DNA of 64,000 nucleotides from Leifsonia williamsii. GTDB taxonomy: Bacteria; Actinomycetota; Actinomycetes; Actinomycetales; Microbacteriaceae. Both the position numbers and the translations under genes were made by a program. The notes under the pieces were generated by a model that did not search any database, had not been told where the DNA came from, and saw only the letters and a list, made by a program, of their open reading frames with translations. Location of the stretch: contig NZ_JAROCF010000001.1 in NCBI RefSeq assembly GCF_030433685.1, positions 310,001 through 374,000 of the forward strand, in the 5' to 3' direction. Positions within the stretch are counted from its first letter, which is position 1; the number at the start of each line of letters is the position of its first letter. Positions 53,075 through 58,064 of the stretch are shown piece by piece.

Positions 53075-54511
53075 ATGACGACCGACCATCCGGGAGGCCG
53101 TGGTGCGGGCGACGACGCCCTGGTGACCACCGCGACCCCGCTCTTCGCCGACAGCGCGGCCGACCGCCGCATCCCCCGCCGGTGGGTGGTGTCGTGGGCG
53201 GCGTGGGACTGGGGAGGCGCGGCCTTCAACGCGGTCATCACGACCTTCGTCTTCACGGTGTACCTGACGAGCAGCCTGTTCGTGGACCCTCCGGTCGTCG
53301 CCGCTCGGGATGCCGAGACGTCGGGCTCGGGACCGGCGCACACCGCGTACGAGGCGGCGGTCGCCACGCTCTCCAGCGGACTGGCGTGGGGCGTTGGACT
53401 GGCGGGTGCCGTGGTCGCGATCCTCGCGCCGGTACTGGGGAGGCGCACCGACGGCTCCGGGAGGCGCAAGCTCTGGCTCGGCATCAACACCGGGGCCGTC
53501 GTGGTCGCGACCGCGCTGATGTTCTTCGTCGTCGGCTCGCCGGCGTACTTCCTGCTCGGCGTGGCGCTGGTCGCGATCGGCACGGTGTTCTACGAGATCG
53601 CCACGGTCAACTACAACGCGATGCTGGTGCAGGTGTCGACGCCGCGGACGGTCGGCCGGGTCAGCGGCATCGGCTGGGGCGCGGGCTATCTCGGGGGCAT
53701 CGTGCTCCTCCTGATCGTCTACTTCGGGATGGTGACCGGCAACGACGACGGCACCGGCGGGCTGCTGCACGTCCCGGAGGACGGCGGGCTGAACATCCGC
53801 ATCATCGCGCTGATCGCGGCACTGTGGACGCTGGTCTTCTCACTGCCTGTGCTGTTCGTCGTGCCCGAGATGACACCGAACGCGCGGACCAGGCGGGTCG
53901 GATTCTTCGAGTCGTACGCGGTGCTCGTCAGGGACATCGGGAGGCTGTGGAAGGAGAGCAGGAACACCGTCCTGTTCCTGATCGCGTCCGCGCTGTTCCG
54001 TGACGGGCTGGTCGGCGTGTTCACGTTCGGCGGCATCCTGGCGCAGGGCACGTTCGGCTTCACCAGCGGCCAAGTGATCGTGTTCGCGATCGCGGCGAAC
54101 GTGGTCGCCGGTGTCAGCACCCTCCTCTCCGGGAGGCTGGACGACCGCTTCGGACCGAAGGCGGTGATCGTCACGTCGCTGATCGGCCTGATCATCGCGG
54201 GCACGGCGGTCTTCTTCACGCACGACCTGGGCGCGACGGCGTTCTGGGTGGGTGGGCTGGTGCTGTGCCTGTTCGTGGGGCCGGCGCAGTCGGCGAGCCG
54301 GACCTTCCTGGCACGCGTCACACCGGCCGGACGTGAGGGCGAGGTGTTCGGGCTGTACGCGACGACCGGGCGGGCGGTGTCGTTCCTGGCGCCGACGCTG
54401 TTCGCGGTGTTCGTCGCGATCGGCGGGGCGCAGTTCTGGGGGATCCTGGCGATCGTGCTGGTGCTCGCGGTGGGGCTGGCGTTGCTGGTGCCGGTGAAGG
54501 CGGTGCGGTAG
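53075..54511 (+). CDS. MFS transporter of the UMF1 type
   Basis: A 478-residue protein with about 12 membrane helices. Family features are WVVSWAAWDWGGAAFNAVIT at helix 1, the motif-A-like LGRRTDGSGRRKLWL, GIGWGAGYLGGIVLL, and the second-half motif ASRTFLARVTPAGREGEVFG. This is the UMF1 (Atg22-like) group, for which amino-acid or other metabolite efflux has been proposed. Substrate unknown. Follows the ECF41 gene by about 50 bases but has its own start region. Confidence 0.85.
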   Translation: MTTDHPGGRGAGDDALVTTATPLFADSAADRRIPRRWVVSWAAWDWGGAAFNAVITTFVFTVYLTSSLFVDPPVVAARDAETSGSGPAHTAYEAAVATLSSGLAWGVGLAGAVVAILAPVLGRRTDGSGRRKLWLGINTGAVVVATALMFFVVGSPAYFLLGVALVAIGTVFYEIATVNYNAMLVQVSTPRTVGRVSGIGWGAGYLGGIVLLLIVYFGMVTGNDDGTGGLLHVPEDGGLNIRIIALIAALWTLVFSLPVLFVVPEMTPNARTRRVGFFESYAVLVRDIGRLWKESRNTVLFLIASALFRDGLVGVFTFGGILAQGTFGFTSGQVIVFAIAANVVAGVSTLLSGRLDDRFGPKAVIVTSLIGLIIAGTAVFFTHDLGATAFWVGGLVLCLFVGPAQSASRTFLARVTPAGREGEVFGLYATTGRAVSFLAPTLFAVFVAIGGAQFWGILAIVLVLAVGLALLVPVKAVR

Positions 54512-54636
54512 GCCCGGTTGGGTGCGTTGGGCGCTGAGCGCGGGGGTCGGGGTTGGGCGGCCGGGCGCGCATCGGGGTCGGTGGTTGGTAATGCAGGAGA
54601 CTTCGCCCGACACGCCGGTGAAGTGCGGGTAAGTCC

Positions 54637-54667
54637 GGAGATTCTGGCCGGGAGAGGCCGAATCTCC
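54637..54667. terminator. Terminator between the UMF1 transporter and the MarR gene
   Basis: GGAGATTC (54637-54644) with GGCC pairs with GGCC and GAATCTCC (54660-54667), with one bulged base; TCCCTTTCC follows. It lies between convergent genes within the 54512-54737 gap; nothing else is evident there. Confidence 0.7.
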
Positions 54668-54737
54668 TCCCTTTCCGACGGGGTGCCGGTCGGCCGGTGG
54701 GCGGGGCGGATGGCGAAGCCGGGTCAGAGAGGGACGG

Positions 54738-55592
54738 TCAGGCGCGCGGCCAGGACTGGGCGAAGCGCGCGAAGAGGGTGGCGAAGGTCTGCGCCTCCTC
54801 GGGGGTGAAGTCGGCGAGGGCCGCCTCGACGGCGGTCCGGCGGTGCGAGCGGACCTCCGAGAGCTGGGCGCGCCCGGCGGTGGTGAGCTCGAGCAGCGCC
54901 CGCCGCGCGTCGGAGGGATCGGGCACGCGGCGGACGTGGCCGCGCTCAACGCCCTCCTGCACCAGCCGGCTCGCGCGCGGCTGATCGACGCCGATCGCGG
55001 CCGCCAGGGTGCTGACCGAGAGCGGACGTCCGGCGCTGTCGGCGGCCTCGAGCGCCTCCAGCATACGGAAGCGTGCCATGCGGCCGAAGGCGGCGTCGCG
55101 TCCGCGGGCTGCGCCGCGCGAGCGGTCGGCCTCTCGCCGGCGCGGGTCGTCGCCGAAGGCGCCCTGCGGGAGGTTCGGTTCGCCGGGTGCGCCCCTGCCG
55201 GCGCTGGCGTTGCCCGTGGACGCGGCATCGGATACGTCGTGCGCGCCTGTGGCGTGCGGGTCGCCGGAGGAGTTTGCGCCGCCCGAGGCGTGCGGGTCGC
55301 CGGCGGCGTGCGCGTCGCCCGAAGCGTGCGCGTCGCCGGGGCCGTGGCCGGCATGGGGGCCCGGCCAGCCTCCTCGTCCCGGCCAAGCGCCGCGGGGGCC
55401 GTGGCCGGGGGCGCCCTCCCACGGACCATGCTGGCCGGCGCCGTGGGCGCCCGGGCCGTACGGGCCCGCGCCGTGCGGACCCCACGGGCCGCGGCGGCGG
55501 GGGTCGCGGCGCAGCGCGGCGAGCGCGGCCTCGATCATCGCGATGACGTCCGCCGAGGGCGAACCCTGCTGGTCTTGACCATGCTCCGACAT
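54738..55592 (-). CDS. MarR-family regulator with long Gly/Pro/His-rich N-terminal region
   Basis: A 284-residue protein from ATG 55592. After a short helix (ADVIAMIEAALAALRRD), residues about 30-165 are low complexity. They begin with GPWGPHGAGPYGPGAHG and continue with repeated GDAHASGDAHAAGDPHASGG units rich in His and Asp, a plausible metal-binding tail. Residues 165-284 form an intact winged helix with HTH LSVSTLAAAIGVDQPRASRL and a wing containing DPSDARRALLELT. The start codon lies inside one of two operator dyads, so the gene is probably autoregulated and possibly leaderless (TATAGT at 55605-55600). It faces the His-rich regulator at 55647. Confidence 0.8.
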   Translation of the reverse strand: MSEHGQDQQGSPSADVIAMIEAALAALRRDPRRRGPWGPHGAGPYGPGAHGAGQHGPWEGAPGHGPRGAWPGRGGWPGPHAGHGPGDAHASGDAHAAGDPHASGGANSSGDPHATGAHDVSDAASTGNASAGRGAPGEPNLPQGAFGDDPRRREADRSRGAARGRDAAFGRMARFRMLEALEAADSAGRPLSVSTLAAAIGVDQPRASRLVQEGVERGHVRRVPDPSDARRALLELTTAGRAQLSEVRSHRRTAVEAALADFTPEEAQTFATLFARFAQSWPRA

Positions 55593-55630
55593 GTATGTAA
55601 CTATACATTCAGTTGTATCAGTACATGCAA
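55591..55630. promoter_or_regulatory. Pair of 18-base operator dyads between two divergent regulators
   Basis: ATGTATgtaactATACAT (55591-55608) and TTGTATcagtacATGCAA (55613-55630) share the half-site WTGTAT and both have six-base spacers. Their centres are 22 bases apart, two helical turns, which suits cooperative binding of two MarR dimers on one DNA face. The first dyad overlaps the start codon of the minus-strand regulator. Confidence 0.75.
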
Positions 55631-55646
55631 ACAGAAAGGTCGAACG

Positions 55647-56666
55647 ATGACGAACATCGACGATTCGAACACCCCCGGCGCCTCCGGGCCCGACATGCCG
55701 CCCGGATACTGGTTCGGCGAGATCCAGAGCCGCCTGCGCGAGCGGATGCGCGACGCGCTCGCCGAGCAGGACCTCCGCCGTGGCAGCTGGCGCATCCTCC
55801 ACCTCCTCGCCGACGGTCCCGCCACCGCGCAGGAGCTGGCCGACCGATTGCCACGCGGGCGCCGGCACGGTCGCGCCGAGTCCGCCTCAGAAGGCCGCCC
55901 CGGCTGGTACGGACGCCCGGAGTGGCGCGGCGGACGCCCGCATCCCGGGTTCCGCCGCCAGGACCCCGACTTCCGCGAGACAGGCCCGCGCGGAGGCGGT
56001 GAGCGTGTGCACGGCGACGCGTGGCACCATGACGATCACCGCCAGGACCCCGACGACCGCCGCCACGAGTACGGCCGGGACCACGAGCGCCAGGACGACC
56101 AGCATCCGCAGCACCACGACCACCACGGGCACCACCACGACGAGCACCCGCAGCACCACGACGAGCACCCGCACCACCACGACGAGCGCGGACAGCACGA
56201 CCACCAGCACGACCGCCACGACGAGCGCGACCACCACGACCACCACCCCGGCACCGAGGCCGCCTTCGAGCGCGGGTTCGAGCGCGGGTTCCTGCGGGGC
56301 TTCGGTGCCGACCTGCGCCGTCACTTCGACCCGCGAGCGGGCTTCGGGCGCCCCGGCTTCGGGCCGGCCGGACCCTGGTTCGGCAGAAGGGACTTCCCGG
56401 GCCGCCCCTTCGGCCCGCACCCCCACCACCGCCCGCGCCGCATCGAGCGCACGCTCGCGGACTTCACCGAGCGCGGCTGGGTGTGGTTCGACGGCGACCG
56501 CGCCACGTTGACCGACGAGGGGCGGGCCGCGCACGACGCCGCCGAGCAGCGGGTGGAGCAGGTCCGCGCCTCCCTCGCCGACGGGATCGACCCCGCGGAC
56601 TGGGCGACCACCATGCGCACGCTCGAGCGGATGGCCGGGAATCTCGGCTGGGAGCGCCCGGCGTAG
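55647..56666 (+). CDS. Winged-helix regulator split by a His/Asp-rich insertion
   Basis: A 339-residue protein; ATG 55647 follows AGAAAGG. Residues 20-70 resemble the first half of a MarR/PadR-type domain (YWFGEIQSRLRERMRDALAE, then SWRILHLLADGPATAQELAD). The second half appears only at about residue 265 (RRIERTLADFTERGWVWFDG, then RATLTDEGRAAHDAAEQRVE). Between them lie about 190 residues that are Arg/Gly-rich at both ends and, over roughly residues 122-205, contain about 29 histidines in runs such as HHDHHGHHHDEHP. The insertion falls at the recognition-helix region. Metal sensing or metal storage is the natural guess, not shown. Codon repeats (CAC/GAC) explain the low-complexity DNA. Confidence 0.75.
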   Translation: MTNIDDSNTPGASGPDMPPGYWFGEIQSRLRERMRDALAEQDLRRGSWRILHLLADGPATAQELADRLPRGRRHGRAESASEGRPGWYGRPEWRGGRPHPGFRRQDPDFRETGPRGGGERVHGDAWHHDDHRQDPDDRRHEYGRDHERQDDQHPQHHDHHGHHHDEHPQHHDEHPHHHDERGQHDHQHDRHDERDHHDHHPGTEAAFERGFERGFLRGFGADLRRHFDPRAGFGRPGFGPAGPWFGRRDFPGRPFGPHPHHRPRRIERTLADFTERGWVWFDGDRATLTDEGRAAHDAAEQRVEQVRASLADGIDPADWATTMRTLERMAGNLGWERPA

Positions 56667-56675
56667 GCTGAAAGC

Positions 56676-57242
56676 ATGACTCCCCCGACGAGCCGCTCCG
56701 GCCGCGAAGAGGTCGTGCTGCTCGCCGAGGACGGCACCCCGATCGGCACCGCCGACAAGGCCACGGTGCACACCACCCAGACGCCGCTGCACCTCGCCTT
56801 CTCGTGCCACCTCTTCGATGGGGAGGGCCGCATCCTCGTGACGCGGCGGGCGCTCGGGAAGGCGACCTGGCCGGGAGTCTGGACGAACTCGTTCTGCGGT
56901 CACCCGGCTCCGGGCGAGGCGATCGAGGATGCGGTCGTCCGGCGGGCGCAGGACGAGCTCGGCACGCGGATCGACAACCTGGCGCTCGCGCTCCCCGACT
57001 TCCGCTACCGCGCGGTCGACGCCGCCGGCATCGTCGAGTACGAGATCTGCCCCGTCTACACGGCGACCATCGTCGGCGAGGTTGCACCCTCCCCCGCCGA
57101 GGTCGCCGAGTGGGAGTGGGTCGACCCGCGCGTGCTGCTGACGGCCGTGGACGCGACACCGTGGGCCTTCAGCCCGTGGCTCACGCTCCAGCTGCCCGCG
57201 CTCTACGCCGAGACCGGCGCCGAAGCTTCGGGTCAGCTGTGA
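56676..57242 (+). CDS. idi: Isopentenyl-diphosphate delta-isomerase, type I
   Basis: A 188-residue Nudix-fold enzyme. The N-terminal HLAFSCHLFDGEGRILVTRR, the catalytic cysteine in TNSFCGHPAPGE, the modified Nudix box region AIEDAVVRRAQDELG and the catalytic glutamate in VEYEICPVY are all present. It interconverts IPP and DMAPP for isoprenoid synthesis. It starts nine bases after the His-rich regulator's stop, so readthrough is possible, although the functions look unrelated. Confidence 0.93.
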   Translation: MTPPTSRSGREEVVLLAEDGTPIGTADKATVHTTQTPLHLAFSCHLFDGEGRILVTRRALGKATWPGVWTNSFCGHPAPGEAIEDAVVRRAQDELGTRIDNLALALPDFRYRAVDAAGIVEYEICPVYTATIVGEVAPSPAEVAEWEWVDPRVLLTAVDATPWAFSPWLTLQLPALYAETGAEASGQL

Positions 57243-57311
57243 GAAGCGCTCATATTCTCCACCTGTGAATGAAGCTGTGGATAACTGCCGTCGCCCATGC
57301 CGGCCGGGGCA

Positions 57312-58064
57312 TCAGTTCGCCCACACGCGGTCCACGCTGAGGCGCGGGACGAGGTGGCCGTCCCTCCCGTCGCTCCACTCGGGGAAGTCGAACACCGCCA
57401 GCATCAGCTGCAACGGATAGGCGGGCGGCGCGTCGAGAAGGCGCAGCACCCGGCCGTCGACGAGGAAGGCGGCGCGGGAGTCGTCCCAGCGGGCCTCGTA
57501 CGCGTGCGGCTCGGTGACGTCGATCGGGACCGGGATGCGCGCGAAGTCCTCCGCCAGCCCCGGGTCGCGGAAGCGGTGGAAGCCGATGCCGACGAGCGCC
57601 TGGTCGCGCGCGATGTCCCGACCGAACACCTCCATCACGCACAGCTCACCGCTGCGCTCCGGCTGATCCTCGAAGCCGATCAGCCAGAGCGACGCCATCG
57701 ACCGCGGCGAGAGGTGCAGGGAGGCCCGCAGCCCGGCCCGCGCCTCCCGGGCGCCGCCGCCGACGAGGCAGCCGCGGAACTCCTCCTGCGCCTCCTGCAC
57801 GGTCAATCCGTCGCGGAACGGCTGCTGGCCGATCGTCGAGCCGACCGGGCCCGAGTAGTTGCCGGTCTGCAGACCCGACACCCGCAGCGGCGTCTCGTGC
57901 ACGCCCTCCGCCCAGAGACCCTGCTCCGGCGGGATGGTCAGCTCGAGGCGGGAGGAGTGGATGCGGTAGGTCGCGCGCGAGGCGCCTTGCGAACTCCACG
58001 CTGGCAGATAGTGCGGGAGCCAGACGCTGCGGTCGAGCTCCGGCTCGTCGAAGTCGTCGAACAC
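57312..58064 (-). CDS. GH16-like (concanavalin-fold) protein with altered active-site motif
   Basis: A protein of about 250 residues from GTG 58064 (CTG 58082, overlapping the upstream stop, or an ATG at 58157 are alternatives). The N-terminus FDDFDEPELDRSVWLPHYLP and the beta-jelly-roll pattern are those of family 16 glycoside hydrolases. The catalytic stretch reads ELCVMEVFG where active enzymes have ExDxxE, so both glutamates are kept and the middle aspartate is a cysteine. It may be a weak hydrolase or a carbohydrate-binding relative. No signal peptide is visible, so it should be cytoplasmic. Probably cotranscribed with the gene at 58079. Confidence 0.72.
   Translation of the reverse strand: MFDDFDEPELDRSVWLPHYLPAWSSQGASRATYRIHSSRLELTIPPEQGLWAEGVHETPLRVSGLQTGNYSGPVGSTIGQQPFRDGLTVQEAQEEFRGCLVGGGAREARAGLRASLHLSPRSMASLWLIGFEDQPERSGELCVMEVFGRDIARDQALVGIGFHRFRDPGLAEDFARIPVPIDVTEPHAYEARWDDSRAAFLVDGRVLRLLDAPPAYPLQLMLAVFDFPEWSDGRDGHLVPRLSVDRVWAN

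Follow-up and report, generated by a model that had tools for sequence, protein, structure and literature searches.

A split MarR-fold protein with a histidine-rich insert, its intact MarR neighbour and their conserved double operator in Leifsonia williamsii

The window analysed here, a stretch of 64,000 nucleotides at 310-374 kb of the 3.89 Mb genome of Leifsonia williamsii, carries two divergent genes, P0002 on the minus strand and P0001 on the plus strand, with a double dyad between them. P0002 is a further member of the known MarR family, and P0001 is a histidine-rich protein whose predicted MarR fold is split by a long insert. P0001 probably does not bind DNA itself but serves P0002 as a metal-binding partner or effector derived from MarR, a reading to which we give a rough probability of 0.48. 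The closest named relatives at this locus, among the matches listed, belong to Leifsonia.

Judged by its residues at the DNA-contacting positions, P0001 appears to be without the DNA-contact signature. The D-x-R wing motif is present in 120 of 121 P0002-type segments and in none of 118 P0001-type segments, that of P0001 included (regular-expression search of the best-listed homologues; the 118 segments were drawn from 120 proteins). The homologue sets are the best 120 of 206 for P0001, itself included, the best 120 of 281 plus P0002 itself for the P0002-type, and the best 120 of 289 for a form of the partner that has no winged helix. Residues V202-V211 of helix 4 and R230 and R231 of the wing are invariant in the P0002-type (51 relatives' rows), and the start of helix 4 in the P0001-type (residues 261-269) has no invariant or nearly invariant residue in 61 rows. 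Since the partner can be without a winged helix at the same operator, it is unlikely to act mainly through operator binding, and a metal-binding effector that feeds back on P0002 is therefore favoured.

Structure of the two proteins and their operator

Features of the locus, in window coordinates:

54738..55592, minus strand: P0002, intact MarR protein of 284 amino acids (sequence, Pfam, predicted structure)
54885..55106, minus strand: part of P0002 running from helix 2 through the wing (residues 163-236); helix 4 contains the invariant QPRASR, and the wing reads DPSDARR
55158..55505, minus strand: P0002 region rich in histidine, glycine and alanine, residues 30-145, predicted disordered, predicted local distance difference test (pLDDT) about 43-62
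55591..55608, no strand: dyad 1, ATGTAT-N6-ATACAT (pattern search)
55613..55630, no strand: dyad 2, TTGTAT-N6-ATGCAA, beginning 22 bases past the start of dyad 1
55647..56666, plus strand: P0001, split MarR-fold protein of 339 amino acids (sequence, predicted structure)
55701..55847, plus strand: P0001 helices 1-3, residues 19-67 (predicted structure)
55848..56426, plus strand: P0001 insert, residues 68-260, predicted disordered, rich in histidine, aspartate, glycine and arginine
56253..56306, plus strand: insert helix with AFERGFERGF, residues 203-220, low confidence (predicted structure)
56427..56642, plus strand: P0001 helix 4, two-residue wing and helices 5-6, residues 261-332
56676..57242, plus strand: NUDIX-domain gene 9 bases 3' of P0001, which we take from its sequence motif to be idi, for isopentenyl-diphosphate isomerase

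P0002 scores 41 bits with the Pfam model MarR_2 (PF12802), whose cut-off is 27. Its winged helix is intact and is followed by the dimer helices, and residues 171-280 form one AlphaFold2 block at a pLDDT of 92-97. Foldseek gives 123 PDB matches at E <= 0.001, and the listed rows are MarR-type. The histidine- and glycine-rich stretch is predicted to be disordered and lies between helix 1 (residues 12-28) and the winged helix. The start codon of P0002 overlaps dyad 1, and its transcript may therefore be leaderless.

The start codon of P0001 is the ATG at 55647 and not the upstream GTG of a longer open reading frame (ORF). For P0001 a complete MarR fold is predicted, and the structure that matches it best is a MarR-DNA complex; the helix-turn-helix is interrupted, as the insert sits in its turn, after helix 3 and before helix 4, and separates the winged-helix parts (residues 45-67 and 261-288) by 193 residues. 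Helices 2 to 5 reach a pLDDT of 92-98 although the insert is predicted to be disordered. P0001 stays under the Pfam cut-off for MarR (PF12802, 12.8 bits against 27), and its best family, PF25213, also falls short (26.5 bits against 35). No second P0001-type gene is present in the same genome at E <= 0.001. A preliminary description made from the sequence had estimated winged-helix halves about 190 residues apart, about 29 histidines in about 80 residues of the insert, and an intact MarR protein as the divergent neighbour, all of which agree with the present results, and the insert is indeed predicted inside the winged helix. Two of its placements are corrected by the predicted structures: the insert does not take the place of the recognition helix, which is retained after it, and the supposed histidine-, aspartate- and glycine-rich tail of P0002 is the internal stretch after helix 1.

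The insert is coding and constrained. As cut by script (194 residues), it contains 35 histidines, 29 of these inside one 80-residue stretch, and they occur in frame only, the other two forward frames giving 0 and 1. Among 12 genes of the 13 Leifsonia-type loci (L012 was missed by the script), inserts are 129-244 residues long with 18-43 histidines in frame and 0-4 in the other two forward frames. Seven overlapping pairs that share loci give a ratio of nonsynonymous to synonymous substitution rates (dN/dS) of about 0.19-0.47 for the insert and about 0.12-0.33 for the core. The net charge of the 12 inserts spans -14 to +9, and a fixed acidic or basic role is therefore unlikely.

The dyads match TGTATN6ATACA, without mismatch at 55592-55607 and with one mismatch at 55614-55629, and were picked up by the pattern search but not by the general repeat scan. 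These two are the sole sites at <=1 mismatch in the window, where 0.02 are expected, and the genome has four such places, of which two are this operator; the backward pattern gives 1. The preliminary description rightly saw two dyads, which recur in relatives, and its "22 bases apart" is the start-to-start distance, the gap between the 18-base dyads being 4 bases. Of the 25 P0002-type loci, the window's own among them, 24 have sites at <=2 mismatches, and 16 have two sites at a spacing of 21-22 bases. Across 64 loci (518,742 bases) there are 13 dyad pairs spaced 20-23, all at this locus position by comparison with the gene maps: 12 lie between the P0002-type gene and its partner, and one (L065) directly upstream of a partner gene. 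A wider regulon was considered and rejected, as the other two genome sites (L112 and L113) are inside ORFs and close to the backward-control count. Since these are the only other loose sites, the pair is likely local and self-controlling. The L112 site, near 394 kb of the same genome, is in a DUF326 ORF (L112:891-1310), presumably copper-storage-like, and is probably there by chance; a heavy-metal ATPase ORF with HMA and E1-E2 ATPase domains adjoins it (L112:1558-3000).

Partner proteins at related loci

Partners at the 25 P0002-type loci, the window's included, comprise 16 split proteins, 6 without a winged helix, 2 compact or shrunken ones with a C-terminal histidine tail, and 1 that was not identified. 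Among 199 genomes searched, 19 of the family have a P0002-type gene at E <= 1e-25; their partners are split in 10 (2 of these frameshifted), compact with a tail in 2, without a winged helix in 4, compact without histidine in 2, and at a contig end in 1. The two sets have six genomes in common. Genus-type labels (Microbacterium-, Agromyces- and Plantibacter-type) are given by likeness to named matches, and absence of the winged helix was judged by eye from the sequences, with no Pfam family in three such proteins.

In a single scan of named genomes, the split gene stands with a P0002-type gene and a downstream idi at all 12 Leifsonia loci (L003-L014), and split partners occur in three more genera (g29, g49 and g51). 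At six loci of Salinibacterium, Rhodoglobus and related genomes, the partner still has helix 1 and the last helix but lacks the winged helix, and its C-terminal tail contains glycine and histidine. L127 and L131 likewise have partners without a winged helix, and in L130 and L132, from a further genus, a histidine-rich N-terminus is followed by little beyond the last helix. The Microbacterium- and Agromyces-type partners (L068 and L070) are compact or shrunken with a histidine-rich C-terminal tail. In two genera (L125 and L129) the partner is compact and histidine-poor, and so is its P0002. The form without a winged helix is common, with 289 proteins of similar length at E <= 0.001, and 103 of the 120 listed have the helix-6 pattern with 34-71 residues ahead of it. 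Two proteins are constant across these loci, the intact MarR protein and a partner carrying the dimer helix of MarR, and the operator accompanies them nearly everywhere; in most partners a part rich in histidine and glycine is added, and the DNA-binding part of the partner is what varies. In the domain tree of the P0002-type, support is 73/87 for Leifsonia, 53/4 for the loci without a winged helix, and 99/99 for g51; as support is low for two of the three groups, no direction of change is claimed.

A compact MarR-like paralogue, with a short extra loop in the turn of its helix-turn-helix and an acidic helix 4, follows within a few bases 3' of the winged-helix-less partner in L024, L030, L040, L042, L048 and L060. 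Proteins like it are present in other Micrococcales loci.

Of 69 Leifsonia-type proteins, 54 carry the motif [AG][FY]ERG[FY]xxG[FYV], which lies in the insert wherever its position was determined; 46 of 51 Microbacterium/Agromyces-type proteins carry it 6-13 residues before the C-terminus. It is found in 0 of 121 P0002-type and 0 of 48,200 shuffled proteins, a count against shuffles that was chosen after a weak matrix result (above 10 bits in 16 of 51 Microbacterium-type proteins, as against 10 of 51 reversed sequences, none of 255 shuffled ones and 1 of 255 with a shuffled tail). The shorter motif AFERGF does not occur in the 120 listed Salinibacterium-type proteins. We read AFERGF as one module that may stand in two places.

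Metal role and alternative readings

YqjI is a nickel-responsive PadR regulator with an intact DNA-binding domain and a histidine-rich N-terminus as a terminal extension, and ArmR is a short protein that relieves repression by MexR. YqjI resembles the present pair in having a histidine-rich segment on a winged-helix regulator, and differs in the terminal position of that segment and in its family; Pfam matches at E <= 1 include no PadR family for P0001 or P0002, the YqjI sequence itself being outside this comparison. The MarR repressors Rv2887 (5hso) and MexR (1lnw) resemble P0002 in sequence and predicted fold and P0001 in predicted fold, and share the short dyads between divergent genes. P0001 differs from them by the long insert in the helix-turn-helix turn, the two-residue wing and relatives without a winged helix. 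MexR-ArmR (3ech, an antirepressor complex by its structure title) is similar in having a second protein that would relieve a MarR repressor, whereas here that role would fall to a dimer module derived from MarR and carrying a histidine-rich part. SmtB of Synechococcus belongs to the ArsR/SmtB family and SmtA is a metallothionein, as stated in passages of PMC4353254; the layout of a winged-helix repressor divergent from a metal holder, with the operator between them, is the same in those passages, the metal function here being putative. In contrast, the supposed holder here is a histidine-rich MarR-fold protein with no cysteine. P0002 gives 12.9 bits with the NCBIfam AdcR/ZitR model NF038251 (cut-off 175) and 15 bits with the ArsR/SmtB model NF033788 (cut-off 55), P0001 is listed for neither, and P0001 is not cysteine-rich in the manner of bacterial metallothioneins.

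We infer a metal role from the histidine composition, with 18-43 histidines per insert in the 12 Leifsonia-type genes. P0002 likely occupies both dyads and represses its own gene and that of P0001. Excess metal would be taken up by the histidine-rich parts of both proteins, and metal-loaded P0002 would release the operator, so that P0001 is produced. P0001 would hold metal, and its MarR-type dimer helices would let it self-associate as a buffer; alternatively, it would pair with P0002 and weaken DNA binding by P0002. The histidine maxima of P0001-type and P0002-type proteins correlate over 25 pairs (rho 0.72 with the L004 partner taken as a fragment and 0.78 with it taken as a whole protein, relatedness not corrected), and rho is 0.76 in the 24 pairs without L004 and 0.75 in ten hand-picked ones. 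The pair table covers 34 loci, with no partner entered for 8 of them and no P0002-type match for one, and several starts in it are internal.

Several observations weigh against a metal-binding, non-DNA-binding partner. The chief evidence against a metal role is the low-histidine lineages: in the six Salinibacterium/Rhodoglobus-type loci, the histidine maximum per 60 residues of the partner tail is only 3-9, and the lowest maximum among the 120 listed proteins without a winged helix is 2. Cysteine is absent from the P0001 insert and numbers 0-1 per insert in the 12 inserts. The histidine correlation owes much to related loci and to two histidine-poor pairs, as rho is 0.58 (13 pairs) without Leifsonia and those two pairs, and 0.62 (p 0.07) inside the nine Leifsonia pairs. 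Inspection by eye of the flanks of ten loci found no metal genes tied to the pair, with the one exception of L003. The dN/dS values come from gapped pairwise alignments of low-complexity sequence. The P0001-type genes of L114 and L115 (G055 and G178) appear frameshifted between the winged-helix parts, which is either sequencing error in GC-rich repeats or decay. Moreover, the winged-helix core of P0001 is conserved in Leifsonia and predicted with confidence, which would be surprising for a part that has no use. The L003 exception is a copper-ATPase-like ORF (L003:7506-8846), about 2.6 kb past P0001, in one Leifsonia genome.

For Leifsonia, where the winged-helix core is still conserved, a metal-gated switch is kept as the main rival, though we consider it rather unlikely and weaker than the effector reading. 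P0001 would then bind one of the dyads, and metal on the insert before helix 4 would open or close DNA binding. The high pLDDT of the core, the match to a MarR-DNA complex, the basic residues directly ahead of helix 4 and the presence of two proteins and two dyads fit such a switch. However, no P0001-type segment has the wing motif, the start of helix 4 is unconserved, and other genera have partners without a winged helix at the same double dyad. The same unconserved helix start and winged-helix-less partners, together with the two-residue wing and the confident helices 2 to 5, do not favour the idea of the preliminary description that metal on the insert orders the DNA-binding domain. From the two-regulator metal switch that it proposed, the linked MarR-type proteins, the split winged helix and the double operator are seen again in relatives, and the metal part continues to be conjectural.

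It is also unlikely that the disordered segment, rich in glycine, phenylalanine, arginine and histidine, serves self-association or pH sensing on a MarR-derived dimer module, with histidine varying by lineage and no metal involved. The tails of the form without a winged helix have median contents of 21% glycine, 13% arginine, 7% phenylalanine and 10.7% histidine (103 measured among the 120 listed, none below 3% histidine); the recurrent motif is AFERGF and not a histidine motif, and there are nearly no metal genes nearby. On the other hand, some inserts and tails are mostly histidine with aspartate or glycine, the dense 80-residue stretch of P0001 is histidine-rich in frame only, and both proteins of L125 and L129 are histidine-poor jointly.

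Control of isoprenoid or carotenoid genes, with P0002 as a CrtR-type repressor acting on idi, is very improbable. In passages of PMC6739363, CrtR of related genera in the Micrococcales is a repressor of the MarR family encoded divergently from the crt cluster under its control, and idi is directly 3' of P0001 and lies downstream in all 12 Leifsonia loci and in L119. In L007, L008 and L010, however, idi is 2.1-2.6 kb away, and among the six winged-helix-less loci the idi motif is found in L048 alone, about 1.8 kb off. What we take to be the crt cluster of this genome is 2.7 Mb away and has its own divergent MarR gene (PF01047, 48 bits; L111:7804-8367), opposite the polyprenyl synthetase gene. 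That gene, which fills the place of CrtR, is likely the CrtR of this genome; P0002 is not divergent from the cluster, and CrtR was rejected as the main explanation on these grounds.

That the insert is a neutral growth of GC-rich repeats in a paralogue undergoing decay is hardly credible: the insert has imperfect tandem repeats and two Leifsonia-type genomes have frameshifts, but dN/dS is below 0.5 for insert and core in 7 of 7 pairs, and frame and histidine content are preserved in 12 genes of the 13 Leifsonia-type loci.

Neighbouring genes and implications

From its position, idi is possibly co-transcribed with P0001. An ATG22/MFS-type transporter (window 53075-54511) adjoins P0002, and ORFs of this type also stand beside the pair in L003, L007, L014, L024, L048 and L060, and L012 and L068 have fragments of such ORFs. 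Scans for promoters and terminators in 54400-57400 gave no match, although their consensus may not suit a G+C-rich genome, and Rfam at gathering score gave no structured RNA in 54000-58000. A search of titles and abstract starts in the open-access literature, with subscription papers mostly outside, found no paper on this locus or on a MarR helix-turn-helix that carries a histidine-rich insert.

At one conserved locus, a MarR-type protein is found split, compact or without its DNA-binding part, and its dimer helix and usually a histidine-rich part persist. Tentatively, and on the doubtful side, a MarR duplicate may have turned into a metal-loaded antirepressor whose DNA-binding domain is split, shrunk or deleted by genus; it would keep the dimer helix and a mobile histidine-rich module, placed at the N-terminus, in the helix-turn-helix turn or at the C-terminus, and would act by titrating the intact MarR repressor encoded on the other side of this double operator. 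Caution is called for with proteins that are named MarR regulators here, as they may not bind DNA. If the reading of P0001 as an effector of P0002 is true, the locus would offer a natural series for how a DNA-binding protein becomes the ligand-loaded partner of its sister, and possibly a histidine-based, cysteine-free metal switch in Actinobacteria.
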